Positions 1 to 17,204 of a stretch of 53,217 nucleotides of DNA are shown here, piece after piece (within the stretch, counting starts at the first letter, position 1; each line of letters opens with the position of its first letter). The notes under the pieces are model-generated. The model made no database searches, was not told the origin of the DNA, and saw nothing but the letters and a program-made list of their open reading frames with translations. The stretch comes from Alistipes sp. Its GTDB lineage: Bacteria; Bacteroidota; Bacteroidia; Bacteroidales; Rikenellaceae. The stretch is taken from contig JAFZFR010000032.1 in the NCBI GenBank assembly GCA_017555805.1, forward strand, positions 1-53,217. Direction: 5' to 3'. Made by a program: the position numbers and the translations under genes.

Positions 1-575
1 CTATCGTGTCAAACCGTATGGATCAGATTCCATCTAAGGATTCTATGCCAGGTTCACTCTACTCAGATTTGGCTAAGATCTACGAGAAGGCTGTGCAGTT
101 GCCAAACGGTGGTTCTATCACTATCATCGCCGTTACAACACTTTCGGGTGGTGATATTACTCACGCTATTCCTGATAACACAGGTTACATCACCGAGGGT
201 CAGCTCTTCCTTCGTAACGACTCTGATACTGGTAAGGTTATCGTCGATCCATTCCGTTCATTGTCTCGTTTGAAGCAGCTCGTAATCGGTAAGAAGACAC
301 GCGAGGATCACCCACAGGTGATGAACGCCTGCGTGCGTCTGTATGCCGATGCAGCAAATGCAAAGACCAAGCTCGAGAACGGTTTTGACTTGTCGGACTA
401 CGATGAGCGTGCATTGAAGTTTGCTCACGACTATTCAGAGCGTCTGTTGGCTATCGATGTAAACATCGAGAGTGAGCAGATGCTTGATATCGCGTGGACC
501 CTCTTTGCAGAGAACTTCTCGAAGGAGGAGGTTGCTATCAAGGCAGAGCTTATCGCAAAGTATTGGAAAGAGTAA
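1..575 (+). CDS. ntpB: V-type ATPase subunit B, 3' part (truncated by window edge)
   Basis: This is the C-terminal ~190 residues of the non-catalytic B subunit of an A/V-type rotary ATPase. The reading frame is open from the window edge, so the true start lies upstream; the GTG at 6 is an internal valine codon. The segment SNRMDQIPSKDSMPGSLYSD followed by TTLSGGDITHAIPDNTGYIT is the strongly conserved nucleotide-interface and catch-loop region of B subunits. B alternates with A in the cytoplasmic A3B3 head. Subunit D starts 6 bases after the stop, so B, D, I and K form one operon. The call is secure by family signature; only the missing 5' end is uncertain. Confidence 0.95.
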   Translation, partial: IVSNRMDQIPSKDSMPGSLYSDLAKIYEKAVQLPNGGSITIIAVTTLSGGDITHAIPDNTGYITEGQLFLRNDSDTGKVIVDPFRSLSRLKQLVIGKKTREDHPQVMNACVRLYADAANAKTKLENGFDLSDYDERALKFAHDYSERLLAIDVNIESEQMLDIAWTLFAENFSKEEVAIKAELIAKYWKE

Positions 576-581
576 CAAATT

Positions 582-1190
582 ATGGCAATTAAGTTTCAAT
601 ATAACAAAACTTCGCTCGGTGAACTCGGCAAGCAGCTGAAGATGCGCCGCACGGCGCTCCCTACTATTAAAAGTAAGGAGTCGGCTCTGCGTTCCGAGGT
701 AAAGCGAGCAAAGGATACCGCACGCGAGTACCGTAGTCGTCTGGATGCTCTGGCAGCCGAGTACGACTATATGGTCGCTCTGTGGGGTGAGTTCGATCCT
801 ACGCTCCTCAGAGTGAAGGATGTTGAGCTCGCCGAGCAGAAGATTGCGGGTGTGAGAATACCTGTGCTGGCGGGTGTGAGCTTCGAGCAGAAGCCTTACG
901 ACCTGTTCTCGTCACCGGTATGGTATGCCGATGGAGTGGAACTTTTGAAGCGTTTGGCAAAGTTGGGTGTTGAGTATGAGGTTTACAATCGCAAGATGGA
1001 ACTTTTGGACTACGCGCGCCGCAAGACAACGCAGAAGGTGAACCTCTATGAGAAGGTGCAGATTCCTGGCTATGAGGACGCTATTCGTAAGATTAAGCGC
1101 TTTATGGAGGATGAGGAGAACCTCTCGAAGTCGGCACAGAAGATTGTTAAAACAAGACAACAGCAGGCTGCGGAGGGGTCTAAGTTATGA
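582..1190 (+). CDS. ntpD: V-type ATPase subunit D (central shaft)
   Basis: This is the 202-residue central-stalk subunit that turns inside the A3B3 head and couples ATP hydrolysis to ion transport. It is built almost wholly of long charged helices: an N-terminal helix rich in Lys/Arg (about 1-70) and a C-terminal helix (about 135-200), as expected for the antiparallel coiled coil of the D/gamma shaft. Length fits the family. The ATG at 582 follows the B stop by 6 bases. The stop overlaps the start of subunit I (ATGA), which suggests translational coupling. Confidence 0.92.
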   Translation: MAIKFQYNKTSLGELGKQLKMRRTALPTIKSKESALRSEVKRAKDTAREYRSRLDALAAEYDYMVALWGEFDPTLLRVKDVELAEQKIAGVRIPVLAGVSFEQKPYDLFSSPVWYADGVELLKRLAKLGVEYEVYNRKMELLDYARRKTTQKVNLYEKVQIPGYEDAIRKIKRFMEDEENLSKSAQKIVKTRQQQAAEGSKL

Positions 1191-3088
1191 TAGTTAAGAT
1201 GTCGCGTTATGACTTTGTGTTGCTTGCGACACAGAGTGAGGATTTTATCGCTCGTCTGCGCGAGTTGGGCTTGGTGGATATCACCACAACAGGTTGGGAG
1301 CCACAGGAGAAGGATCGCCAGTTGGTTATGGATATCGACCAGTATCGCAAGGCTATCGAGACCCTCGAGGAGTTCTCGAAGGGCGAGGAGTACGGCTTCG
1401 CGAAGAAGGGCGCTGATGGTTCGGTCGTGATGGTTGAGCCACAGCCTTACACTTCGGGCAAGGAGGCGTTTGAGAAGTACACCGAGCTTCGTCAGCAGAA
1501 GTCTGCATTGCAGGCCGAGGAGGCACGCCTTGAGAAGATGGTCGAGGAGTTGAAGCCTTGGGGCGAGTTCGAGGGCGAGGCACGCGAGAAATTGTTGCAG
1601 CAGGGTATCGTGCTGCGTTACTTCGTGGCGCAGGCTTCGACTTTCGAGAAGTGCGCCGAGGAGTGGGCCGCTGCCTACACAATCGTGGAGATTAACCGCG
1701 ATGCTTCGACCGTTTACTTCGTTGTTGTCGCTGCTCCAGGTGAGGATATTGTAATTGATGCACAGGAGGTTAAGGCTCCAGCGATGGATAGCCGTGCAGC
1801 AGATGCCGAGGCGGAGAAGTGCCGCCTGGAGTTGCAGAACCTCAATGTGGAGTTCTCTATTTGCGCTGCAAGTCTCGATGCAATCAAGCAGCAGTATGAT
1901 GCGTTGGTTCGTCAGTTGCAGGATGTAAAGATTAAGGGTACAGCCACCGAGGCTGCCGACGGAGCGTTGGTAGTGATGGAGGGCTGGGCAGAGGAGGATA
2001 AGTCACAGCAGGTGGACGCCTTGCTTGACGAGTATCCCGATGTCATCTACCTCAAGCGCAACCCAGTGCCAGAGGATGATACCCCAGTTAAGTTGAAGAA
2101 TAATTGGTTTGCTCGCCTTTTCGAGATGATTGGTGCGATGTACGCCTTGCCAAAGTATGGCACTATGGACCTTACTCCATTCTTCGCTCCGTTCTATATG
2201 TTGTTCTTCGCAATATGTTTGAACGATGCGGGTTACGGTGCTATCCTGACATTGGTCGGCGCAATTCTCCTGGCGAAGGGCGGCAAGGGCTTGAAGCAGG
2301 CTGCGTGGCTCACCATCTTCTGTGGTGGCGCTACTACGCTGTTCGGTCTCTATACAGGTTCGTTGTTTGGTATGAGCATTCCCGATATGCTGGGTTATGA
2401 AAGCATCGCCAACTCTCCGTTCCTCGATTTCCAGAATCAGTTCTTCTCGTTGGCGTTGGCGTTGGGTGTTGTGCAGATTTTGTTCGGTATGTTCCTTAAC
2501 ATCTGCCTCCAGACCAAACTCTTCGGCTTTACATCTACATTCGGCCTCTTGGGATGGTTTATCATCCTCTTGTCGGGCTGCTTGGCGGTAGGTCTGCCAA
2601 TGATGAACGAGAACCTCACAATCTCGTGGTTTACCGCTTCGTCGCCAGCATTCTACGCTGCGATGGGCGTGGGTGCGGTGTTGATGCTTCTGTTGAACAA
2701 CATCAAGCGTAATCCACTCATCAACTTCGGCTCGGGTTTGTGGGATGCCTACAATAACATCACAGGCTTGTTGAGCGATGTGCTCTCTTACATCCGTTTG
2801 TTCGCAATCGGTTTGTCGGGCGGTGTGTTGGCGCAGGTTTTCAACTCGCTGGCTATGGGTCTTACTGGCTTGGATGCAGGTATCGAGAGTTTCGGTGTGG
2901 GCACAGTGTTCCAGATTATCGGTGCATCGGCTATCCTGCTCATCGGTCACGGTATCAACCTCTTTATGTCAGCAATCTCATCGTTTGTTCACCCTATGCG
3001 TTTGACATTCGTTGAGTTCTATAAGAATGCAGGTTTCGAGATGACTACTCGTCAGTTCGAGCCTTTAACAAATGAGAATAATAAATAA
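1187..3088 (+). CDS. ntpI: V-type ATPase subunit I (membrane stator, a-subunit)
   Basis: This 633-residue stator subunit forms the ion half-channels next to the rotor ring. Residues 1 to about 310 are a cytoplasmic, partly coiled-coil arm that contacts the peripheral stalk. The rest holds about seven or eight hydrophobic membrane segments. The motif LSYIRLFAIGLSGG supplies the essential stator arginine (R537), and FVHPMRLTFVEFY near the C terminus carries a second arginine (R605), both usual for the family. The ATG at 1187 overlaps the end of subunit D by 4 bases; a second ATG at 1199 is an alternative start. Subunit K follows 32 bases downstream. Confidence 0.93.
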   Translation: MIVKMSRYDFVLLATQSEDFIARLRELGLVDITTTGWEPQEKDRQLVMDIDQYRKAIETLEEFSKGEEYGFAKKGADGSVVMVEPQPYTSGKEAFEKYTELRQQKSALQAEEARLEKMVEELKPWGEFEGEAREKLLQQGIVLRYFVAQASTFEKCAEEWAAAYTIVEINRDASTVYFVVVAAPGEDIVIDAQEVKAPAMDSRAADAEAEKCRLELQNLNVEFSICAASLDAIKQQYDALVRQLQDVKIKGTATEAADGALVVMEGWAEEDKSQQVDALLDEYPDVIYLKRNPVPEDDTPVKLKNNWFARLFEMIGAMYALPKYGTMDLTPFFAPFYMLFFAICLNDAGYGAILTLVGAILLAKGGKGLKQAAWLTIFCGGATTLFGLYTGSLFGMSIPDMLGYESIANSPFLDFQNQFFSLALALGVVQILFGMFLNICLQTKLFGFTSTFGLLGWFIILLSGCLAVGLPMMNENLTISWFTASSPAFYAAMGVGAVLMLLLNNIKRNPLINFGSGLWDAYNNITGLLSDVLSYIRLFAIGLSGGVLAQVFNSLAMGLTGLDAGIESFGVGTVFQIIGASAILLIGHGINLFMSAISSFVHPMRLTFVEFYKNAGFEMTTRQFEPLTNENNK

Positions 3089-5150: not shown

Positions 5151-7427
5151 CTAATAATCTACCCTGATGAGCCACTCGCCCGACCCCAAAGTGCCACAAT
5201 CAATGCGCCCGTTGGGCAAAATCTGCACTTTTCGGTTGCGACCATTGATGCTCAATCGTGCTGCGACAACATCTCCCGTCGCGGGCAACGACACCTCGGC
5301 GGTGGTGTTGGCTGGAATCTTCAGCGCGAGAGTGTAACTCTGCTCGGTGTTGTTTATTGTGGCAGCCACGCCTCCGCGGATGGTCGGTACAACGGCCTCC
5401 ATCTGCTTGAGCGTGGATGTCTGTGGCGCAATCGCAATCTTGCCAAATCCCGCCTCAAGCGGTCTTATGCCCACCACATAGCGCGGAATGATGTTGGCGG
5501 GAGCAGCGCCCCACGCGTGGTTCCAATCCTGGTTTGGTTTGAACTTATCGTCCCACGCCTCGTATGTTATTGTGGCGTTGTGGCGCACCATATTATACCA
5601 GCCTCGCTCATCCTGCTTGGTCAGCATCGCGAGGGCGTAATCATCGTCATAGTGCTCATATAGCGCCTCCATCAGGAACTGCGCCGCATATACGCTGCAC
5701 GCCATTCCCTTCGAGTGGATGTGCTCCAGCACTCTTTGGCGGTGCTCCTCGGGCACAAGACCCAACGCAAGGGCGAAGTGGTTGGCGTGGAGCGAGTGGT
5801 GGTCAGCGCCGATGCCGTCACGATATAACCCCTTCTCCAGGTCGAAAAAGTGGGCGTTGAAGTCTGCGAAAAGTTTGTCGCACTCCGCCTTTAGTTGCTC
5901 CGCCTCGTCGGTGCGGTCGGCCAGTTGCGCCATCTGTTGCAGGATAACCAGAGCGCGGTAGTGGAACGCATTGACTACGGTGTTATAGTCCGCGAGGCGG
6001 TAGTTATCATCCTCGCCGTGCTCCCAGTCGCCGCAACGAGGCCAGTCCACGATGTCGCGGATATTGCCGCCAAAGCGTATCGACGAGCGGAACGCATCAC
6101 TCTTGACCTTATCATCAGTCGTGGAAATCAATCCATTCTCGCGGCGCAATGATGAGAGGGTGCGAGCCTTCAGGATGTCATAGTTCGCCTCGATTGAGCG
6201 CTTGTCGCCCGTATAGAGATAGTCGTTCCACACGATTATGAGCGCCTGCAATATCCACTCGGTAGGCCAAGTGGGGTGGTTGAGCAGATACTCCGATGTA
6301 CGGCGCGCCATCGCGAACTCGCGGTCGGTGGTGTAGTGGCTCAACTGGTTGATGAGCGCGTCCGCCTCGTAGGGGATGCGCTCGCGGTCGCCATCTACAT
6401 AAATGCCGAGCGCGGATGTCGCCTTGATTGAGTATTTGCAGAGTTCCCAGACGGCGTTCAGGATATCGTTGTCGCTGTGGAACTGCGCCGCCGCATAGTC
6501 AAACGGGTATATTGCCGTATGGCGCACAATATCCTCGCGCGAGATGTTGCCAGCATAACCCTCCACCTCGCAGTAGCGCATCGGCGCGACCTCACCGATG
6601 TAGTTGGGCATCAGTATTGCCTGCGGACCTGTGTTGCGCCTATCGTGGGCGGGGATGATGGGGTAGGTGTGGCGACCCTTGCGTAGAGGCAGGGCGTAGC
6701 GGTAGTAGCGCACAGTGCCGTGTGGACGGCTGTTTACGCGACCATCCTTGCTATCCTCGCCAATGGCAATGTAAATCGTGTCGTTGTCGCGCTGTGAGTC
6801 TAAAGTGACCTCCAACGAGCAGAACGATGCGCGACCGAAGTCTATAAATGTCGTTGTGGGGTCAATCTTGCGGATGGTGGTAGGGTGCTCCCTCTCGCGC
6901 ACCTGCGGACGGAACGAACAGGCGTAGGGCTGTAACTCCTCGGCGGTGCGGAACGCCACGCACTCCGACCACTCGCCTCTTTCGGCGGAGGTTGCCACCT
7001 GAACACTCCAGTAATATGTTTTGCTGGCGGCAAGGTCTGCGCCTCCGTAGGGCACTGCAACCGATTCTGCGCTGCGTACGCGACCGCTATCCCACACCTT
7101 TCCCGCGTGGTCGGCGGCGTCGGCTGGGTTATCATCCACCACGATGCGATACCACCTCTGCACGATATTGTTTCGCCCAGCGCTCTGGGGCACTATCCAC
7201 GAAAATGTGGGTCGCGACGAGCGGATGGCAGCATATTGATACTCCGCGAACTCGCCCTCCGCGAGGTCTGTCATCTGCCTCTCGGCGCGGTAGCCATTCT
7301 GGTAGAGCGCCGAAGCCTCGCCGACAAGGTCGGTGAGCAGTCCCGTAGCGCGGTTTTGCGCCATAAGGTTGAGCGATAGGGCAGCAAGCAGTGCGGCAAG
7401 CGCAGTGCGTAATATTGATTTTCCCAT
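5151..7427 (-). CDS. Secreted alpha-L-rhamnosidase-like GH78 enzyme
   Basis: The 758-residue protein starts with a signal peptide (1-23, ending LMAQ). It probably cleaves terminal L-rhamnose from plant or host glycans in the periplasm or at the surface. An N-terminal beta-sandwich part (about 60-290) includes the WSVQVATS strand typical of the rhamnosidase N domain. The (alpha/alpha)6 catalytic part carries YVDGDRERIPYEAD, the GH78 acidic motif, and TEWILQALIIVWNDY. The C-terminal DWNHAWGAAPANI and GFGKIAIAP are also standard for the family. No SusC/D pair adjoins it, so it is not in a visible polysaccharide utilization locus. Substrate specificity is inferred from family only. Confidence 0.85.
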   Translation of the reverse strand: MGKSILRTALAALLAALSLNLMAQNRATGLLTDLVGEASALYQNGYRAERQMTDLAEGEFAEYQYAAIRSSRPTFSWIVPQSAGRNNIVQRWYRIVVDDNPADAADHAGKVWDSGRVRSAESVAVPYGGADLAASKTYYWSVQVATSAERGEWSECVAFRTAEELQPYACSFRPQVREREHPTTIRKIDPTTTFIDFGRASFCSLEVTLDSQRDNDTIYIAIGEDSKDGRVNSRPHGTVRYYRYALPLRKGRHTYPIIPAHDRRNTGPQAILMPNYIGEVAPMRYCEVEGYAGNISREDIVRHTAIYPFDYAAAQFHSDNDILNAVWELCKYSIKATSALGIYVDGDRERIPYEADALINQLSHYTTDREFAMARRTSEYLLNHPTWPTEWILQALIIVWNDYLYTGDKRSIEANYDILKARTLSSLRRENGLISTTDDKVKSDAFRSSIRFGGNIRDIVDWPRCGDWEHGEDDNYRLADYNTVVNAFHYRALVILQQMAQLADRTDEAEQLKAECDKLFADFNAHFFDLEKGLYRDGIGADHHSLHANHFALALGLVPEEHRQRVLEHIHSKGMACSVYAAQFLMEALYEHYDDDYALAMLTKQDERGWYNMVRHNATITYEAWDDKFKPNQDWNHAWGAAPANIIPRYVVGIRPLEAGFGKIAIAPQTSTLKQMEAVVPTIRGGVAATINNTEQSYTLALKIPANTTAEVSLPATGDVVAARLSINGRNRKVQILPNGRIDCGTLGSGEWLIRVDY

Positions 7428-7564: not shown

Positions 7565-10450
7565 CTAACGAGGACCGCCCATAGGACCACCCATTGGAGG
7601 ACCCATTCTCATACCCTGCTGACCCTTGCCGTCAGAGATGCCGTAGTCAGAGAGTGACTGCGAGCCCTTCTTGCCGAAGAAACGCAGGTTGTAGTTGAAC
7701 TGAACGGTGTAGTAGCGACCGATTACGCTGCTCCAAGAGTTCTGTGTGAAACCAGAGCCAGTAGAGCGTGAGAACGCCTTGTTCTGGTTGAAGATGTCGT
7801 TCACACCGAACATAATCTCACCCAACTGATTCTTGAACAACTTGTGGCCGATGAAGGCATTGCAGAGTGTGTAAGAGTCGTTGTAGTTGTTGGTGTAACC
7901 GATGTACTGGATGTACTGGGCATTAGCCGAGAATGTAAAGCCCTTCAGGAACACAGCCTTGAGCGTAGCCTCTGCGTTGTGGTTGAAGTACTCGTTCTTG
8001 CCCTGTGTGCCGAGTGAGTTGTTTGCCTGGTTGAAACCACCACCCCACGAGAGTGTGAAGTCGATATTCTCCGAGATATTGCTACCCAACACGATGTTTG
8101 CGTTGTAACCGATGTTGCTTGCGATGTTCTTCTCTCCGTTGATGAGCGAAGGAGTCTCGTTGTAACTTACGCCACCCATCAAGTTCAGGTTACACTTCAT
8201 AAAGTTCAATGGCAAACCATAGTTCAAGTGAGTACGCAGGTCGAGGAAGCCATCCACATTCTCGGTTGTAGAGTACTGGATTGGTGTCGAGCCCACCTCG
8301 TTGATAATATCCTGTGGGATGTTGCCACCAGTGTAGAGGCTCTGTGCGAGGTAGTTCTGCGTAGTCTGGAACGAGAACATCCACATCAGGGTCTGCGCCT
8401 TCTCCAGGTTGGTGAAGTTGTAGTGGAAGTTAAAGCGGTGAGAGTAGGCGGGGTTCAGGTTCTCGTTACCGCGTGATACATACTGCGTATTAGAGATGTC
8501 GAGGATGTTCTGCAACTGTTGGATGCGTGGGTTGTCGGTGCTTGACATCAAGAACACACGCAATGAGTTCTGCTTGTTGAACTGGAAGTTACCCATCGCA
8601 AAGTATGTGAAGTCGTTGTAAGAGCGCTTCACTGGCTGCGACTGGAGCGCCTGCACCTGACCGTCGAGAGTAGAGTACTGGTAGGCGAGGTTCACAACGA
8701 TGTTGTTCTTCTCCTTTGCCCAACTGAAACCGGGACCTACGCGGTGAGTTGTATAGTCGCTTGTGTAGATGTTCGAGAGGGCTGGGTCGAGAACGCCATT
8801 TGTATATGTGCCGTCGTTGCCGAAGTTAAATGTGCTCTTGTTGCTCTCCTGACCGGTGAAGTTGAAGTCGTAGCGGAGTGTCACCTGTGCGTACTTCGAT
8901 ACTGGCTCTGCGTAGTTGATTGCAGCGCCGATGCCGAGGTTGTCAGATGTAGATGTGCCAGCGAGGTAGCGCAAGTACTCTGTGCCGTCGGTTGCGGTGT
9001 TAGAGTAACTGCGTGACTCGTTGTCGTTGTCGCGGTAGTTCACACGACCATCCACAGTGATGAAACGACCAGTCTTACCCAACTTCAAACGATACTGGAT
9101 GAACTCCGAGATGTTGTAACCGCCGTTGTCACCTTTGCTACCATTCTTGATGAGGTTGTTGATAGCGTCGCCCACCTGCGTACCGTTGGTCTCGCTGAAT
9201 GGGTCGTATGACTGGAGACTGAAGTTTGTACGCGACATAAACGACTGATTTTCCGAGATGCGCCAATCAACACGCGCACCCAAACGGTGGTTGTAGTTGT
9301 GGTTGTTGCTTTCGCTCTCCTGCTCCAAAGTACCGAGGTCAGCCAAAGGAGCCTCATACCACTTGATAGTCTGCGAGAGGTTGCGAGTCTTTGAGTCGTT
9401 GTAGAAGTAGTTTGCTTGCAACTTAACCTTATCCTTCTCGCCCCAAGAGTTCGAGTAGTTAAGACCTACGGCGCTCACCTTCGCAACACCGCTCTGTGGG
9501 CGTACCATATACTGACCTACGCCGCCGCGACCCATACCGCCGCCGTGACCGCCAGTAGAGCCGGTTGCGCCAACGATATCCTCGAATGAGAAGTTCTGCT
9601 TGTTAAGGTTGTTGAAAAGACCGAGCAATGTCAAGCGGCTTGCACCGTTGAAGTGGCTCACGCTACCGCCTGCCAAATACTTGTGGTGGTCGGTCACCTC
9701 GTCAGTCTCTGGCTGGTAGCCGTAGCCTGCGAAGAGTTTACCGAATACGCCCTGACGCATACCTGGCTGTGTAACGATGTTCAAAGCCTTGAAACTGTCG
9801 CCATCGTCCATACCCGAGAACTCGGCGTTGTCGCTCAACTTATTATATACCTCGATATTCTTTACTGCCTGTGCTGGGAGTGAGTTCAAGGCTGTCGATA
9901 CATCCTCGCCGAAGAACTCCTTACCATCGACATAAATCTTCTTTACGGTCTCACCCTGCGCCTCTACCGAGCCGTTCTTTACGGTGATACCTGGCATCTT
10001 CTTCAACAGACCCTCCACATCGGCGTCGCTTGCCACCTTGAATGCGTCGGCGTTGTAACTTACGGTGTCACCCTTCTGCGATGCGCGGATAGCCTGCACC
10101 TCCTTGACAACCATATCAATCTTTGTCGATGCCTCCTTGAGTTCTACCTTGCCCAAGTCCTTGTTTGCAGAGTTAATCTTCACATCCATCTCCAGATCGT
10201 CATAACCCAGGAATGCCACTGTGAGTTTGTAGTCACCATACTTCTGCGCTGGGATAGTCACCTTACCCTTGTCGCCCGAAGTGAAGTGCTTTGCATCGTC
10301 AAGGTTAGCGGTTGGGGCGATGCTTACTACGGCACCAACTACCGCCTGCTTGTTCTGTGCATCAATGATTGTCATTGATAGTTTACCGCTCTGCGCGTAA
10401 GATGCTGCGAAGAGGCAGGTAAACAGAATAGTCATTAATAACTTTCTCAT
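7565..10450 (-). CDS. Outer-membrane beta-barrel protein (TonB-receptor-like, with CarboxypepD-like domain)
   Basis: The 961-residue protein has a signal peptide (1-19, SYAQ), a carboxypeptidase-regulatory-like beta-sandwich (about 24-110), a plug-like domain with MPGITV and KKIYVDGKEFFGED (about 125-230), and a long barrel region rich in alternating Tyr/Asn/Phe strands, ending in FNYNLRFF. After the barrel comes a short tail rich in Met, Gly and Pro (RMGPPMGGPMGGPR), and a Gly/His/Met-rich insert (about 300-320) lies near the start of the barrel. No SusD partner is present, so the cargo is unknown. It belongs to the Omp_b-brl_3 group rather than true SusC. It lies downstream of the Spy-like gene and the two-component pair and has its own promoter. 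Confidence 0.85.
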   Translation of the reverse strand: MRKLLMTILFTCLFAASYAQSGKLSMTIIDAQNKQAVVGAVVSIAPTANLDDAKHFTSGDKGKVTIPAQKYGDYKLTVAFLGYDDLEMDVKINSANKDLGKVELKEASTKIDMVVKEVQAIRASQKGDTVSYNADAFKVASDADVEGLLKKMPGITVKNGSVEAQGETVKKIYVDGKEFFGEDVSTALNSLPAQAVKNIEVYNKLSDNAEFSGMDDGDSFKALNIVTQPGMRQGVFGKLFAGYGYQPETDEVTDHHKYLAGGSVSHFNGASRLTLLGLFNNLNKQNFSFEDIVGATGSTGGHGGGMGRGGVGQYMVRPQSGVAKVSAVGLNYSNSWGEKDKVKLQANYFYNDSKTRNLSQTIKWYEAPLADLGTLEQESESNNHNYNHRLGARVDWRISENQSFMSRTNFSLQSYDPFSETNGTQVGDAINNLIKNGSKGDNGGYNISEFIQYRLKLGKTGRFITVDGRVNYRDNDNESRSYSNTATDGTEYLRYLAGTSTSDNLGIGAAINYAEPVSKYAQVTLRYDFNFTGQESNKSTFNFGNDGTYTNGVLDPALSNIYTSDYTTHRVGPGFSWAKEKNNIVVNLAYQYSTLDGQVQALQSQPVKRSYNDFTYFAMGNFQFNKQNSLRVFLMSSTDNPRIQQLQNILDISNTQYVSRGNENLNPAYSHRFNFHYNFTNLEKAQTLMWMFSFQTTQNYLAQSLYTGGNIPQDIINEVGSTPIQYSTTENVDGFLDLRTHLNYGLPLNFMKCNLNLMGGVSYNETPSLINGEKNIASNIGYNANIVLGSNISENIDFTLSWGGGFNQANNSLGTQGKNEYFNHNAEATLKAVFLKGFTFSANAQYIQYIGYTNNYNDSYTLCNAFIGHKLFKNQLGEIMFGVNDIFNQNKAFSRSTGSGFTQNSWSSVIGRYYTVQFNYNLRFFGKKGSQSLSDYGISDGKGQQGMRMGPPMGGPMGGPR

Positions 10451-10551: not shown

Positions 10552-10579
10552 TACACTTTTAGGGTGAAATGACAAAATC

Positions 10580-10702: not shown

Positions 10703-11281
10703 TTAGAAGTCGCCGCCACCGAAGCCGCCGCCGAAGCCACCAGGACCACCCTGACCAGGACCGCCGAAGCCACCCTGACCGCCCTGCTGACGCTGCTGCA
10801 TCTGCTCACGCATACGCTGCTCCTGGGCCTTCTTCTGCATCTGCCACTTCTTGTACTGCTTCTCTGTGAGAATCTTCTTCATAGCAGTCTCCTCGGCAGT
10901 CACCTGTGCCTGACGCTGCTCCTGCATCTGCTTCATCCACGCTGCACGGTCCTCCTCGCTCATGTTACGGAAGTCCTGGCGCTGACCCTGCTCACCCTTC
11001 TCGCGAGCCTCCTGCATAGCCTTCATACGCTCTGCGCGCTCTGCCTCCTGCTTCTTGAAGTTAGCGAGGTGGTACTCGTAGATCTTCTTGTTCTGCTCTG
11101 CGCTCAAATCGAGGCTCTTTGTCATACGATCTGCCTGCATCTGTGCGCGCTGCTCAACTGTCATACGCTGGCGCTGTGGACGCTGACCATTCTGTCCCTG
11201 AGGACCCTGTGGGCCCTGTGCTGAAGCGCAAGTGGCGATCATAGCCATTGCTGCTACCAAAAATACTTTAAGAGTTTTCAT
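10703..11281 (-). CDS. Spy/CpxP-like periplasmic protein with Gly/Phe-rich tail
   Basis: The 192-residue protein has a signal peptide (1-21, SAQ) and a highly charged helical core with two LTxxQ-like motifs (SLDLSAEQNKKIYEY near 55 and ILTEKQYKKW near 138), as in the Spy/CpxP periplasmic chaperone family. It is dominated by Gln, Arg, Met and Glu. The last 30 residues are low-complexity GGFGGPGQGG repeats. It sits between the LytTR regulator gene and the outer-membrane barrel gene, which itself has a GPM-rich tail, so the three may form a stress-response or surface-assembly unit (inference). It could be a barrel chaperone or a metal-responsive protein. Confidence 0.7.
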   Translation of the reverse strand: MKTLKVFLVAAMAMIATCASAQGPQGPQGQNGQRPQRQRMTVEQRAQMQADRMTKSLDLSAEQNKKIYEYHLANFKKQEAERAERMKAMQEAREKGEQGQRQDFRNMSEEDRAAWMKQMQEQRQAQVTAEETAMKKILTEKQYKKWQMQKKAQEQRMREQMQQRQQGGQGGFGGPGQGGPGGFGGGFGGGDF

Positions 11282-11323: not shown

Positions 11324-11387
11324 GTGACAATATTTCAATGTTGGCGCTTCACCCGCGGTTAGTCGGCTGATTGTGGGGGTGAAACGA

Positions 11388-12164
11388 CTAATTCGAGGGT
11401 TGAATCGCCATCAGCCACTGCTTAAATTCGGGCACGCGAGCCTTCGAGATGATAATCTTCTCGGGCGCTTCAATCACAAGGTTGAGCGAAAGGCGGCTGC
11501 CGAACCATACGGCGATGTCCTTCACAGACTTGCGCGACACGATAAACTGGCGGTTGGCGCGGAAGAACTCATCGGCGGGCAACAACGACTGCAAGGTCTC
11601 CAGCGTGCGGTCCACGATATACTTCTCGCCCGAATGGGTGAATGCCGACACCTTCTCGTTTGAGGTGTAGAAGAATGCGATGTCGTCAATCGACAGAGGG
11701 ATAATCTTATCCTTGTAGTGAACGAGGAATACGCGCTGGTTCTCCTGCTTGCTCGCCGAGGCCATACTCTCCACGCGCGACTTGTACTCGGTGCGCTCGA
11801 TGCCGCTCAACTGCGCCAACTTGTCGATGGCGTGACGCAGGTCCTCCTCCTTGATGGGCTTGAGGATGTAGTCGATGCTGTTCACCTTGAATGCGCGCAG
11901 GGCGTACTCGTCGTAGGCGGTGGTGAAGATGATGGGGGCGGTGATTGTCACCTTGTCGAAGATGCGGAACGACTCGCCGTCGGCCAGGTGAATATCCATA
12001 AACACCAGGTCGGGCGTGGTCTGGGTGCTATCCTCGAAATACTCCACACTCTCCTCGATGCTCTCCAGTACGGTGAGCACATTGTACGAGGGTGCTACCT
12101 TGCGAAGGATTGCTTGCAGGTTGTTGGCAGCAGCCGTCTCGTCTTCTATAATCAGTACATTCAT
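11388..12164 (-). CDS. LytTR-family response regulator
   Basis: The 258-residue regulator has an N-terminal receiver domain (1-120) with the acidic pocket IEDE, the phospho-acceptor Asp in LVFMDIHLADG (residue 57 region), the conserved Thr in IFTTAYDEYA and Lys in YILKPIKEEDL. Its C-terminal LytTR DNA-binding domain (about 150-250) contains DDIAFFYTSNEKVSAFTH, FFRANRQFIVS and related strands. The upstream gene encodes its histidine kinase, ending 18 bases before this start, so the pair is co-transcribed. LytTR regulators of this type in Bacteroidota usually control a few nearby genes; the Spy-like and barrel genes downstream are the obvious candidates (inference). Confidence 0.92.
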   Translation of the reverse strand: MNVLIIEDETAAANNLQAILRKVAPSYNVLTVLESIEESVEYFEDSTQTTPDLVFMDIHLADGESFRIFDKVTITAPIIFTTAYDEYALRAFKVNSIDYILKPIKEEDLRHAIDKLAQLSGIERTEYKSRVESMASASKQENQRVFLVHYKDKIIPLSIDDIAFFYTSNEKVSAFTHSGEKYIVDRTLETLQSLLPADEFFRANRQFIVSRKSVKDIAVWFGSRLSLNLVIEAPEKIIISKARVPEFKQWLMAIQPSN

Positions 12165-12182: not shown

Positions 12183-13535
12183 TTAATTTTCAGGTCTCTG
12201 CAATGGCAGGCGCACCGCGAACTCTGTCTCGGTGTCGATAATCTCGATGTCGGTGCCAGTGATTAACTGCCAGCGGCTGCTCAAGTTTTTCAGTCCGATG
12301 CCCGTAGATGGCTCTGGCTCAAGTTTTGGCGCCTTGTGGTTGCTCACCACAAGCGTCGAGCCCTCGGTGCGGATTGAGATGTGGAACGGATGCTTGCGCG
12401 TGATGGTGTTGTGCTTCACTGCGTTGCCGATGAGCGGCTGAAGTGTCAGCGCGGGCAGAGTCCAGGAGTTGTATTTCTCGTCAATCTCGATGTCGAAGAA
12501 TAGTTTGTCGGCGTAGCGTACCTTGAAGAGTTCGCCGTAGGCCTTCGCAAACTCCATCTCCTCCTGAAGGGTCGATTTGGTGTTCTGACCATTCTGCAAG
12601 ATGTAGCGGAAGGTGTACGAGAGTTGGTCGATGTACTCCAGCGCCTTCTCGTCGTTCTTGTCGCGCACCAGCATCGAGAGCGAGTTGAGCGAGTTGAAGA
12701 AGAAGTGGGGGTTAATCTGTCCCACCAGCATATTATAGCGGCTCTGGATGTTCTCCGTACGCAGGTGCTCGTTCTCCAAGAGGATTTTTTGCTGCTGATA
12801 CAGAAGCAGATAGATGCGACCATAGAGGATGGCAACCACCAGCACCACCATACATTTCAAAACTCCCATCCAGTCAATCATCGAAGGCGTCTGATTCTGC
12901 GAAATCATCACCAGGCGGCCTGTCTGCCAGTTCACAACGGGGGTGAGGAAGTAGCAGGCGATGGTCAGTAGGATGACAATGGCGCAGCGTTGCAGATACT
13001 TGCCGCGATTGATTGAGTCGATACGCATAGTCATCACCATCAGCAACAGGAACGAGAGGCTGAAGTAGAAGAGCATCTGCACCAGAGTGTCCTGATTGCG
13101 CTTTGGGCGGTCATAGATTGCTGGCGCGGGAATCTCGTTGCCGTTTTGTGTGCGTACCACATCGAGGCTTGGGTTGCTGTTGCCGCGTGGCGGGAAGAGT
13201 GTGCAGACAATCTCGTCGCCGTTTTGCAGGTTGTACCAACGCACCTTGCGGTTGCTCACGAATATGCTATCGACCTCAAAAGCGCGTATGGGGTGCTCCA
13301 CCACCACCTTCTCGGCGGGGATGACATAGCCGTAACCATCGGGCGAGAGGTGGAAGATACCCTTGCACTCGGGACGCTCCGTCATCTCCTGCTCGATGCG
13401 CTGACGCTGGTCGTTGCTCTCGCGCTCTGCGACAATCATCGAGAGTAGATACGAGAAGTTTATCGTCAGCGAAATCACGCTGGCGATGAGTATGTTGATG
13501 ACCAGGTTGGAACGCTTGAATTTCAATACATTCAT
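12183..13535 (-). CDS. LytS-type sensor histidine kinase with a Rho-like OB domain outside the membrane
   Basis: The 450-residue kinase has four predicted membrane segments (about 11-34, 151-171, 183-201, 222-246). The His_kinase domain has QINPHFFFNSLNSLSML (phospho-acceptor His277), an N-box LIGNAVKHN and a G-box GIGLKNLSS. Between segments 1 and 2 lies a domain (about 57-132) that reads like the RNA-binding OB fold of termination factor Rho: GIFHLSPDGYGY (59-70), then DSIFVSNRKVRWYNLQNGD (89-107) and FPPR (114-117), against Rho PDGYGFLR, DDIYVSQSQI and RPPKEGE. The ligand aromatics are kept (Y68, Y70, F92). With the kinase in the cytoplasm, four segments place this domain in the periplasm. 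What it binds is unknown. It is paired with the LytTR regulator downstream. Confidence 0.88.
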   Translation of the reverse strand: MNVLKFKRSNLVINILIASVISLTINFSYLLSMIVAERESNDQRQRIEQEMTERPECKGIFHLSPDGYGYVIPAEKVVVEHPIRAFEVDSIFVSNRKVRWYNLQNGDEIVCTLFPPRGNSNPSLDVVRTQNGNEIPAPAIYDRPKRNQDTLVQMLFYFSLSFLLLMVMTMRIDSINRGKYLQRCAIVILLTIACYFLTPVVNWQTGRLVMISQNQTPSMIDWMGVLKCMVVLVVAILYGRIYLLLYQQQKILLENEHLRTENIQSRYNMLVGQINPHFFFNSLNSLSMLVRDKNDEKALEYIDQLSYTFRYILQNGQNTKSTLQEEMEFAKAYGELFKVRYADKLFFDIEIDEKYNSWTLPALTLQPLIGNAVKHNTITRKHPFHISIRTEGSTLVVSNHKAPKLEPEPSTGIGLKNLSSRWQLITGTDIEIIDTETEFAVRLPLQRPEN

Positions 13536-14949: not shown

Positions 14950-14978
14950 AAAATGTGTTATTTCCAATAAATCATCTA

Positions 14979-14986
14979 CAAAGTTA
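14979..14986 (-). promoter_or_regulatory. -7 element of mazG
   Basis: TAACTTTG on the minus strand matches TAnnTTTG exactly, 30 bases before the chosen mazG start. It is divergent from the hexosaminidase promoter, only 21 bases away. No good -33 element is seen. Confidence 0.55.
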
Positions 14987-15007
14987 TGATTTTCCGCGCG
15001 AAAATAG

Positions 15008-15015
15008 TATATTTG
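15008..15015 (+). promoter_or_regulatory. -7 element of the hexosaminidase gene
   Basis: TATATTTG matches TAnnTTTG exactly and lies 20 bases before the start at 15036. This supports that start over upstream in-frame codons, which would overlap the promoter. Confidence 0.6.
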
Positions 15016-15035
15016 TATGTAATATTTTTACCGCT

Positions 15036-17204
15036 ATGAGAAGATTTTGGCTAATTGCAATGCTCTGCACGGTGATTTTTCACCTCTCGGCGTCGGCGCA
15101 GAATGTGGTGCCCGAACCGAAAAAGATTGAAAAAAGGAACGGAGCGTATCATATACAGACAACGACTAAAATTACACACTCATTGGGACTCCGTTCCTTG
15201 GCTGAACGCCTGGCGGAGTACCTGCCGCTCGACATTCGCGAGTATAACGCTGCCGAGAGGGGTAATATTGTGTTGCTGGAGCGAGAAAATCTTGCCGCCG
15301 AGGCGTATCGCCTTGAGGTCAGCGAGGAGGGCATCACGATTGAGGGTGGCTCGTCCGCGGGCGTGCATAACGGCATCGAGACGCTGCTGCAACTTTTGCC
15401 CTCGATGGTCTATTCCAAAGAGTTGTCGTTCCCCGTGGCGGTGGGCTGCTGCGAGGTGGAGGATGAGCCGAGGTTTGCCTATCGTGGTTTTATGCTTGAT
15501 GTCTGCCGCACCTGGATGTCGGTCGAGGAGGTGAAAACCTTTATCGAGCGACTGGCGCACCATAAAATCAATAAGTTACATATCCACCTTTCGGACGATG
15601 AGGGCTGGCGCATAGAGATTAAATCGCACCCCGACCTTACCGAGGTGGGTGGCTTCCGTGGCGTGGGCTCGCCCGTTGCGGCGCGCTATGGCAAGTGGAA
15701 TGAGCGCTACGGCGGATACTATACGCAGGAGCAGATGCGCGACATCGTGGAGTATGCCGCGGTGCGTAATATCGAGATTATCCCCGAGATTGACCTGCCT
15801 GGTCACAGCCACAATCTGGCGCGCGTGCGTCCCGAGATACTCTGCAACTACACCCCTGGACTGAAGGCGTCGGATGGCTATGATACGCGCAGCGTGATGT
15901 GTGTGGCGAAGCAGAGCAACTACGATCTGCTGGATGATGTATTCCGCGAGTTGGCGGAGGTCTTTCCATCGAAGTGGGTGCATATTGGTGGCGACGAGGT
16001 GAACACCTCGCAGTGGAGCCGTTGTCCCGACTGCAAGGCACTGATGGCGAGCGAGGGCATAGGCATCGAGAAGTTGCAGGAGCACTTTATGAACCGCGTG
16101 GCGAAGATTGTCGGCAACTACGGCAAGAGCCCTTGCGTGTGGAACGAGGCGATGAAGGCGGGCACGCTCACCAAGTCGGCGCAGGTCTATGGCTGGGAGA
16201 GTGTCGCGGCGTGTCGCAAGGCTACGGCGGAGGGGTATAAGACGGTGGTGATGCCTGGCGCATACTTCTACTTCGATATGCGACAGACCCAGCGCGAGCC
16301 TGGTCACGATTGGGCGGCAATATTCGATGCGAAGAAGCCTCTGTCGTTCGACTTCGCCGAGCAGGGCTTTACCGAGGCGGAGATGGCAAATGTCGTGGGT
16401 GTGCAGGCGTCGTTCTTTAGCGAGTTGTATATCTCTCACCGCGACGACGAGCGCGACTATATCTACTACCAGACCTATCCCCGCATCTGCGCCTTGAGCG
16501 AGTTGGCGTGGCGTGGCGAGGGCGGCGAGTGGAAGACCTTTTATGCCAAGATGGTGGAGAGCCATTATAGCCGTATGGTGGCGATGGGCATTGATTTTCG
16601 CCTGTTTCCGCCCGTGGTGAGTTATGCCGATGGCGTGTTGAAGGCCTCGACCGACGACAGCGCACACATATATTATAATATAGTGGGCGAGGCAGAGCCC
16701 AAACGCTACGAGCGTCCAATCACAACCGATAAACCGCAACTCTACTCATTCTTTACGCGTATGGGCGGAGCGCAGAGCCCCGAGGCGGCGGTGAAGTCGC
16801 ACTGGCGAATGTTGCAGCCCGTGGTGAAGATTACCTCGTCGATGGAGCCCAGCGAGCGCTTCCCATTCTCGAATGCCGAGGGCTATGGTCGCATCTCCCG
16901 TACGGCGAGGGTATGCCGCGAGGGCGACTGGTTGCTCTACACCTTCGAGAAACCCGTTTCGTGCCGTCGTATGGAGATTTCGACGGGCAACCTCCAACTG
17001 CCGCGCTACATTTTCAATGCGGGATATATGGAGGTGAGCGAGGATGGCGTGAACTTCAAGCGTGTGGGCGACCTGAAGAATGGTGGCTGCGCGATAGAAA
17101 ACCCCTCGCGCCCAATCAAGGCGGTGCGTGTGGTCTGCACCGAGAACGGCAACGGCGCAGATTTCGTTACGGTGCAAGCACCTAAAGTCTATCCTAAACT
17201 CTAA
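15036..17204 (+). CDS. Secreted beta-N-acetylhexosaminidase (GH20)
   Basis: The enzyme (722 aa from the ATG at 15036) starts with a signal peptide (MRRFWLIAMLCTVIFHLSA, ending SASAQ). It removes terminal GlcNAc or GalNAc from glycans. A GH20b-type N domain covers about 20-140. The TIM barrel starts at RFAYRGFMLDVCRTWMS and contains KLHIHLSDDEGWRIEI and the catalytic HIGGDEV (Asp-Glu pair, substrate-assisted mechanism), then WNEAMKAG and ALSELAW. The C-terminal ~110 residues look like an F5/8-type carbohydrate-binding domain. The frame is also open upstream to 14955, but that extension has no signal peptide. The LOG-family gene follows after 5 bases. Confidence 0.93.
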   Translation: MRRFWLIAMLCTVIFHLSASAQNVVPEPKKIEKRNGAYHIQTTTKITHSLGLRSLAERLAEYLPLDIREYNAAERGNIVLLERENLAAEAYRLEVSEEGITIEGGSSAGVHNGIETLLQLLPSMVYSKELSFPVAVGCCEVEDEPRFAYRGFMLDVCRTWMSVEEVKTFIERLAHHKINKLHIHLSDDEGWRIEIKSHPDLTEVGGFRGVGSPVAARYGKWNERYGGYYTQEQMRDIVEYAAVRNIEIIPEIDLPGHSHNLARVRPEILCNYTPGLKASDGYDTRSVMCVAKQSNYDLLDDVFRELAEVFPSKWVHIGGDEVNTSQWSRCPDCKALMASEGIGIEKLQEHFMNRVAKIVGNYGKSPCVWNEAMKAGTLTKSAQVYGWESVAACRKATAEGYKTVVMPGAYFYFDMRQTQREPGHDWAAIFDAKKPLSFDFAEQGFTEAEMANVVGVQASFFSELYISHRDDERDYIYYQTYPRICALSELAWRGEGGEWKTFYAKMVESHYSRMVAMGIDFRLFPPVVSYADGVLKASTDDSAHIYYNIVGEAEPKRYERPITTDKPQLYSFFTRMGGAQSPEAAVKSHWRMLQPVVKITSSMEPSERFPFSNAEGYGRISRTARVCREGDWLLYTFEKPVSCRRMEISTGNLQLPRYIFNAGYMEVSEDGVNFKRVGDLKNGGCAIENPSRPIKAVRVVCTENGNGADFVTVQAPKVYPKL

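Follow-up and report, generated by a model that had tools for sequence, protein, structure and literature searches.

A sensor histidine kinase encoded on a 53,217-nucleotide stretch of DNA from an Alistipes sp. (GenBank assembly GCA_017555805.1, contig JAFZFR010000032.1, positions 1–53,217; this whole stretch is called the window here) carries, between its first two membrane segments, a domain related to the RNA-binding OB domain of the transcription terminator Rho. The explanation that we favour, with slightly more than even confidence, is that a Rho-related OB domain was inserted into a kinase paired with a LytTR regulator, where it would act as a periplasmic input domain for a ligand other than pyrimidine-rich RNA. 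The homology, the place of insertion, the neighbouring genes and the orthologs lacking the domain are read from sequence; the fold and the membrane side are predicted.

A Rho-related OB domain in a sensor kinase

The kinase gene is an open reading frame of 450 amino acids (12183..13535, minus strand, as are all features below unless marked otherwise), and the Rho-like domain occupies residues 56–135 (13131..13370). A first-pass annotation made from the sequence alone had placed it at residues 57–132 and 13139..13367; these residues correspond to 13140–13367, within one base of that claim. The motifs that it listed are all present: PDGYGY at residues 65–70 (13326..13343), which pairs with the Rho stretch ending F62-G-F64, DSIFVSNRKVRWYNLQNGD at residues 89–107, and PPR at residues 115–117. 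The second of these begins with DSIFV (residues 89–93, 13257..13271), which pairs with D77–V81 of Rho and has S90 in place of D78.

Profile searches agreed with this assignment. The Pfam model of the Rho OB domain, PF07497, covered residues 58–132 and matched the excised domain at E 1.5e-6 and 28.4 bits, above its cut-off of 27 bits, and the whole protein at 24.4 bits, below it; two NCBIfam Rho models also matched the excised stretch (E 2.5e-5 and 6.8e-5). A PF07497 search of the genome gave 114.6 bits for Rho itself, 27.2 bits for the kinase and 14.9 bits for a weak place with an internal stop. Among relatives, the same model matched 28 of 28 orthologous domains (best E 6.3e-10) and reached 39 bits on one whole protein (locus L067). 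With the single sequence, Rho ranked first in a search of the PDB at an E of just 0.027; with a profile of the 28 orthologous domains, Rho was the only match at E <0.008. The hhalign alignment of the kinase domain with Rho included the last strand and went on as far as the NG motif. By these sequence comparisons the kinase domain is homologous to the OB domain of Rho, though divergent, and the resemblance that the first-pass annotation had noticed is above chance, its interpretation being supported by profile, predicted fold and placement.

The AlphaFold model predicts an OB barrel, as the annotation had expected, and Rho was its best solved match in comparisons with VIA-align and Foldseek; RNase II/R, CspA and a NigD-like protein came next by fold. 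Hydropathy predicts four membrane segments in the kinase, at residues 17–35 (13431..13487), 150–168 (13032..13088), 184–202 (12930..12986) and 219–237 (12825..12881); 87 of 93 sequences have four such segments and six have three. Because the catalytic part must be cytoplasmic, the N-terminus would be so too, which leaves the OB-bearing first loop outside the membrane, and the basic N-terminus and second loop agree with the positive-inside rule. The periplasmic placement proposed earlier thus holds by prediction. A YDRP juxtamembrane motif (residues 141–144, 13104..13115; P144 in 90 and R143 in 79 of 91 sequences) accompanies the inserted domain and was not seen in the OB-less orthologs L064 and L065 described below.

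The rest of the protein has the features of a PF06580 histidine kinase. PF06580 matches residues 266–345 (E 2e-22, 79.7 bits, cut-off 25.2; 12501..12740), including H277, which is invariant in the 30 kinases compared, and the gene immediately precedes that of a LytTR response regulator. With E values up to 10 admitted, Pfam reported just PF06580, PF07497 and a weak DUF6057 match, and neither a 5TM-5TMR_LYT (PF07694) nor a GAF domain, in a scan in which the HMMER filters discard most very weak matches. LytS kinases are defined by the 5TM-5TMR_LYT domain in the portion of PMC5552118 used here, so the label 'LytS-type' given in the first pass stands for the core and the LytTR partner but not for this defining domain. 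The kinase would work like an ordinary sensor kinase that carries an unusual input domain.

The counterpart of the RNA-binding face of Rho keeps the aromatics but not the base-reading residues

We compared the face that binds RNA in Rho across 91 distinct kinase sequences, pairing positions by the PDB profile search and hhalign, with 31 Rhos (30 of the same phylum and that of E. coli) as the comparison set. As proposed in the first pass, Y68, Y70 and F92 align with F62, F64 and Y80 of Rho. The F64 counterpart is Tyr in all 91 kinases and the Y80 counterpart is Tyr in 83 and Phe in eight; the F62 counterpart is Tyr in 46, His in 43 and Phe in two, so that stacking at this position is general only if His counts. 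D77 is matched by Asp in 90 kinases and Tyr in one. By contrast, R66 and D78, which like F64 and Y80 do not vary among the 31 Rhos, are nearly always replaced in the kinases. Arg is kept at the R66 place in one of the 91, the other 90 having Val (45), Ile (35), Leu (8), Met (1) or one further residue (1), and none of the 91 keeps Asp at the D78 place, which is Ser in 90 sequences and Lys in one. Thr stands at the S90 place in the kinase of G258, a genome of another genus. The E108-R109-Y110 patch is not kept as such, in line with the earlier claim; the counterpart of Y110, residue 121 by hhalign, is mostly His (67), with Asn in 23 sequences and Tyr in one. That the aromatics are kept, base reading is changed and a new Ser is nearly invariant suggests, from these alignments, that the face still has a function, be it in binding a different ligand or in stacking without specificity.

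An alternative, which we consider possible but put well short of even, is that nucleic acid or nucleotides are still what the domain binds, the kinase being a periplasmic receptor for DNA, RNA or products of their breakdown, with Y68, Y70 and F92 stacking without reading of the pyrimidine edge. The retained aromatics favour this, as do the nearest folds: Rho, RNase II/R and cold-shock proteins all bind nucleic acid. The portions of the literature used here bear on both sides. R66, D78 and Y80 are among the pyrimidine-recognising residues of E. coli Rho (PMC9908020), and Rho mutants have weaker DNA binding (Y80C) or are defective in binding single-stranded RNA (F62S; PMC12133298, from which we take the stacking roles of F62 and Y80, that of F64 coming from the first-pass annotation). 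T. thermophilus Rho, however, differs at R66, D78 and Y80 and yet prefers C-rich RNA (PMC9908020), so the loss of R66 and D78 is no proof against RNA binding. Against the alternative stand the near-complete replacement of R66 and D78, the loss of E108-R109-Y110, and a neighbourhood of eight scanned proteins in which MazG, encoded two genes upstream, is alone in handling nucleotides. We do not class the domain as RNA-binding because residues tied to RNA binding are missing. Were this tentative alternative true, a terminator domain would serve as a gut DNA or RNA sensor controlling an outer-membrane barrel protein.

Distribution, origin and evolution of the domain

The kinase was matched at E 9.4e-99 or better in 54 of 61 sampled genomes of its genus, with 43–78% identity (self apart). 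These matches span most of the query except in G001 and G010, in which long inserts in the loop make them start at residue 80–81; the match in G009 is interrupted by a contig end. The best 80 of 88 relatives, whose loci we collected, are assigned to Alistipes, Rikenellaceae or Bacteroidales. A domain-profile search of 268 genomes of the family, 180 of them of the window's genus, was read at a line of E 1e-14, the best value in genera with Rho only being 2.1e-14. This line was passed by 158 of the 180 genomes of the genus; the other 22, some of them incomplete, gave Rho-like matches only or none. Among the 88 family genomes outside the genus, G258 (genus g58) and 10 of 11 genomes of genus g61 passed, and the OB domain was present in the three kinases read there (G258, G291 and G297).

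Orthologs without the domain mark the place of insertion. In genus g60, L064 and L065 encode kinases of 362 and 355 amino acids with four segments and 19–20 residues between segments 1 and 2, where the OB domain would sit. Their gene order is that of the window: barrel gene, regulator, kinase, a hexapeptide-repeat gene, which we label gamma-carbonic-anhydrase-like, and MazG. Across 247 genomes of the order, the full-length profile gave matches (E 1e-60 or better, leaving out the window's) that begin no earlier than model position 126, about at segment 2, and two of the loci read outside the family (L069 and L070) have short loops between segments 1 and 2. On these comparisons the simplest reading is a single gain by insertion in the ancestor of three genera, Alistipes and two near ones; loss in g60 instead is possible. 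We infer both that the domain was gained and that it was derived from a Rho gene. The window's genome has its own separate Rho (L031), which scores a mean of 33.6 bits against the kinases (91 of 91), compared with 31.3 bits for E. coli Rho (89 of 91); these pairwise scores do not single out the host Rho as the source, since the best-scoring Rho varies from kinase to kinase. One genome of the same genus has, in addition to the OB kinase, a second kinase and regulator pair (L066, G060:C27); this second kinase, of about 359 amino acids, matches the query only from residue 149 onward.

At the level of the phylum, the domain profile matched in 341 of 345 genomes, at one place in 322 and at two in 19, including the window's, with a best E per genome of 2.3e-8 to 4.6e-13 (window apart). 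The 29 places fetched (L152–L180) were Rho by motif. Second matches were searched again in 16 of 18 genomes, plus G258 of the window's family; G519 and G569 were left out. Twelve of the 16 were fetched (L201–L212): in seven the longest frame of the locus carries a motif of the RNase R type, and in five, with open frames of 655–764 amino acids, it does not. The second match of G525 is a second, short Rho, and those of G834, G666 and G584, in open frames of 719–751 amino acids, were not read. A short Rho-like protein of 383 amino acids with a divergent OB domain occurs in another family of the phylum (L213, 361–1512, minus strand). Outside the family, this phylum sample showed no further kinase built in this way, with eight second matches unassigned, two not examined and other phyla unsearched. 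The survey of kinases proposed with the first-pass annotation therefore found the domain among the orthologs of this kinase but not in other kinases of the sample.

The domain varies more than the kinase around it. In six pairs of close relatives, the rate of nonsynonymous substitution (dN) was 0.16–0.37 in the OB domain versus 0.03–0.08 in the kinase core. The ratio to the synonymous rate (dN/dS) in the OB domain, computable in four of the six pairs, was 0.10, 0.12, 0.17 and 0.26, values that are rough because synonymous sites are near saturation; by these ratios the OB sequence is under purifying selection. DGYGY and DS are separated by as few as 6 residues (L011) and as many as 65 (L009); both L009 and L010 have long inserts in the OB domain. 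Cysteines recur nearby, at column 73 in 41 and column 75 in 32 of 91 kinases, and a CDCE stretch just after DxxGY is found in one ortholog group (L022–L024, L026, L027, L029 and L030). They are possibly metal or redox related.

These data bear on a second alternative, that the domain is structural, spacing or dimerising the kinase or docking an accessory membrane protein with no soluble ligand. Its fast evolution, the variable DGYGY–DS stretch and the OB-less orthologs with the same gene order would all fit such a role. Purifying selection argues against it, as does the near-invariance of Y70, S90 and D89, which lie on the RNA-binding side of Rho, and we think it improbable, somewhat more so than nucleic-acid binding. 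That the domain is cytoplasmic and binds RNA as in Rho would suit the family that it resembles, which is cytoplasmic; the predicted topology speaks against this, with the kinase part inside, and segments 1 and 2 are also present in the OB-less orthologs, so that we give it very little credence. Least credible is a chance resemblance or another small barrel (cold-shock, RNase II/R or NigD-like OB): OB_RNB matches 15 of the 28 orthologous domains (best E 1.6e-6) and the other barrels, whose folds are related, follow Rho in the fold comparison, but Rho leads in both sequence and fold and its match reaches the NG motif past the last strand.

Gene neighbourhood and putative regulator sites

The response regulator (258 amino acids, PF00072 and PF04397, 11388..12164) is followed by two probable target genes, one for a DUF4890-like protein of 192 amino acids (10703..11281) and one for an outer-membrane barrel protein of 961 amino acids with CarbopepD_reg_2 and OMP_b-brl_3 domains (7565..10450). 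The DUF4890-like protein matches PF16231 at E 8.3e-6 and 26.7 bits, below the cut-off of 29.7; it had no NCBIfam match and no convincing match among solved structures (best E 0.04). A Spy/CpxP-like role for it is a guess from sequence features. Across 87 loci, comprising the best 80 of 88 relatives and seven from further genomes, OB-less ones included and some cut short, a relative of the regulator was present in every one; the hexapeptide gene was found in 81, the barrel gene in 77, MazG in 76 and a relative of the DUF4890-like protein in 23. In one locus (L085), about 2.4 kb separates kinase from regulator, the genes being otherwise close together.

A common element, GTC[A/G]TTTCACCC, stands in the spacers ahead of the two probable target genes. 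The two putative sites are GTCGTTTCACCC (11377..11388), 95 bp before the DUF4890-like gene, and GTCATTTCACCC (10562..10573), 111 bp before the barrel gene. The window's genome contains three copies of GKCRTTTCACCC, compared with two of the reversed control, and two of the three are the window's sites. The third (L184, 2958–2969, minus strand) is found 124 bp upstream of a second OMP_b-brl_3 gene (2–2833, minus strand), which makes that gene a candidate for a distant regulon member. Of 25 exact copies in the 80 loci of relatives, 24 fall between the regulator and the barrel gene, a region of 56,280 of 783,297 bases, and in several of these loci the site is repeated every 21–22 bp. In the portion of PMC4847170 used here, LytTR sites are repeats of 9–11 nucleotides spaced 11–13 nucleotides apart, and YpdB binds a direct repeat of GGCATTTCAT. 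The GTC[A/G]TTTCACCC element is likely a LytTR operator. The window also holds genes for an alpha-L-rhamnosidase (5151–7427, minus strand) and a GH20 hexosaminidase (14955–17204, plus strand) on the two flanks, pointing to glycan use.

Discussion

In the explanation that we favour, a kinase that already had four segments would have received, in the short loop joining segments 1 and 2, an OB domain related to that of Rho, which would serve as its periplasmic input domain. Because the ends of the OB domain run straight into these two helices, a ligand held on the aromatic face that has been kept (Y68, Y70 and F92 with S90 and D89) would move them against each other and so change kinase activity and, in turn, phosphorylation of the adjoining response regulator. 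The regulator would then act on the DUF4890-like and barrel genes through the GKCRTTTCACCC sites, a step backed by their conservation. The ligand is probably not pyrimidine-rich RNA read as by E. coli Rho, because the base-reading residues are replaced. As a first guess, it may be a glycan or else a protein or peptide of the envelope, the DUF4890-like product being one possibility; we would next consider a nucleic acid or nucleotide, at well under even probability, and then, less probable again, no ligand at all.

Several observations weigh against this explanation. The whole kinase scores 24.4 bits against PF07497 (E 2.6e-5), below the cut-off that the excised domain passes, and the full-length model has a predicted template modelling score (pTM) of 0.49, so its arrangement of domain and membrane is not reliable. 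The conserved aromatic face could equally favour nucleic acid, and the His at the Y110 counterpart could also stack. Net charge, considered as an argument against nucleic acid, gives none: Rho domains are as acidic as the kinase domains (mean −3.1, n = 30, versus −2.8, n = 91), and the two are not separated. A full-length relative was not matched in 6 of the 61 same-genus genomes, which are 77–85% complete. The link of the DUF4890-like protein to the kinase is one of position only, and in a g61 locus (L067) the OB domain is present with no gene between the regulator and the barrel gene. With one mismatch allowed, the window has two copies of the site versus 0.72 expected, and at least two occurred in 15 of 100 shuffles; the 61 same-genus genomes hold 76 exact copies versus 37 of the reversed control, and 26 of them have none.

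Sensor-kinase input domains are mostly of PAS, Cache, helical or membrane types, and we know of no described kinase of this build. No description of a Rho-type OB domain in a kinase, and nothing helpful on LytTR systems of Alistipes or on DUF4890, was found in the literature searched, which included few subscription papers and preprints. The kinase appears to be a clean case in which a domain of core gene expression was taken over for sensing outside the cytoplasm, and the place of insertion, the OB-less orthologs and the probable target genes can all be seen. It makes testable whether a Rho-type OB domain placed outside keeps nucleic-acid binding or uses the same face for another ligand, and it offers a first handle on a two-component system apparently kept by 158 of 180 genomes of the genus.

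Compared with the OB domain of Rho (PF07497, PDB 1a62), the kinase domain shares the predicted fold, DGYGY, DxIYV, PPR/PPK, the stacking aromatics and the NG motif after the last strand. It differs in lying within a membrane protein, on the predicted outside, in the replacement of R66, D78 and E108-R109-Y110, and in being followed by the PF06580 region instead of an ATPase part. With the LytS/LytTR systems BtsS/BtsR and YpdA/YpdB, the kinase shares the tandem LytTR regulator and the PF06580 core, which we take to be that of YpdA and BtsS as well; it differs in its predicted extracytoplasmic OB domain and in that Pfam reported neither 5TM-5TMR_LYT nor GAF. The OB-less kinases L064 and L065 have the same gene order, four segments and 47–49% identity in the best aligned piece, and differ in having 19–20 residues in place of the OB domain. 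The NigD-like protein 4pqx also has an OB barrel in an exported protein, presumably extracytoplasmic. The putative sites of the window resemble the YpdB motif GGCATTTCAT as given in the cited portion of PMC4847170, and an extracytoplasmic OB domain is described, in the part of PMC2954213 used here, for the Klebsiella lipoprotein KPN03535.
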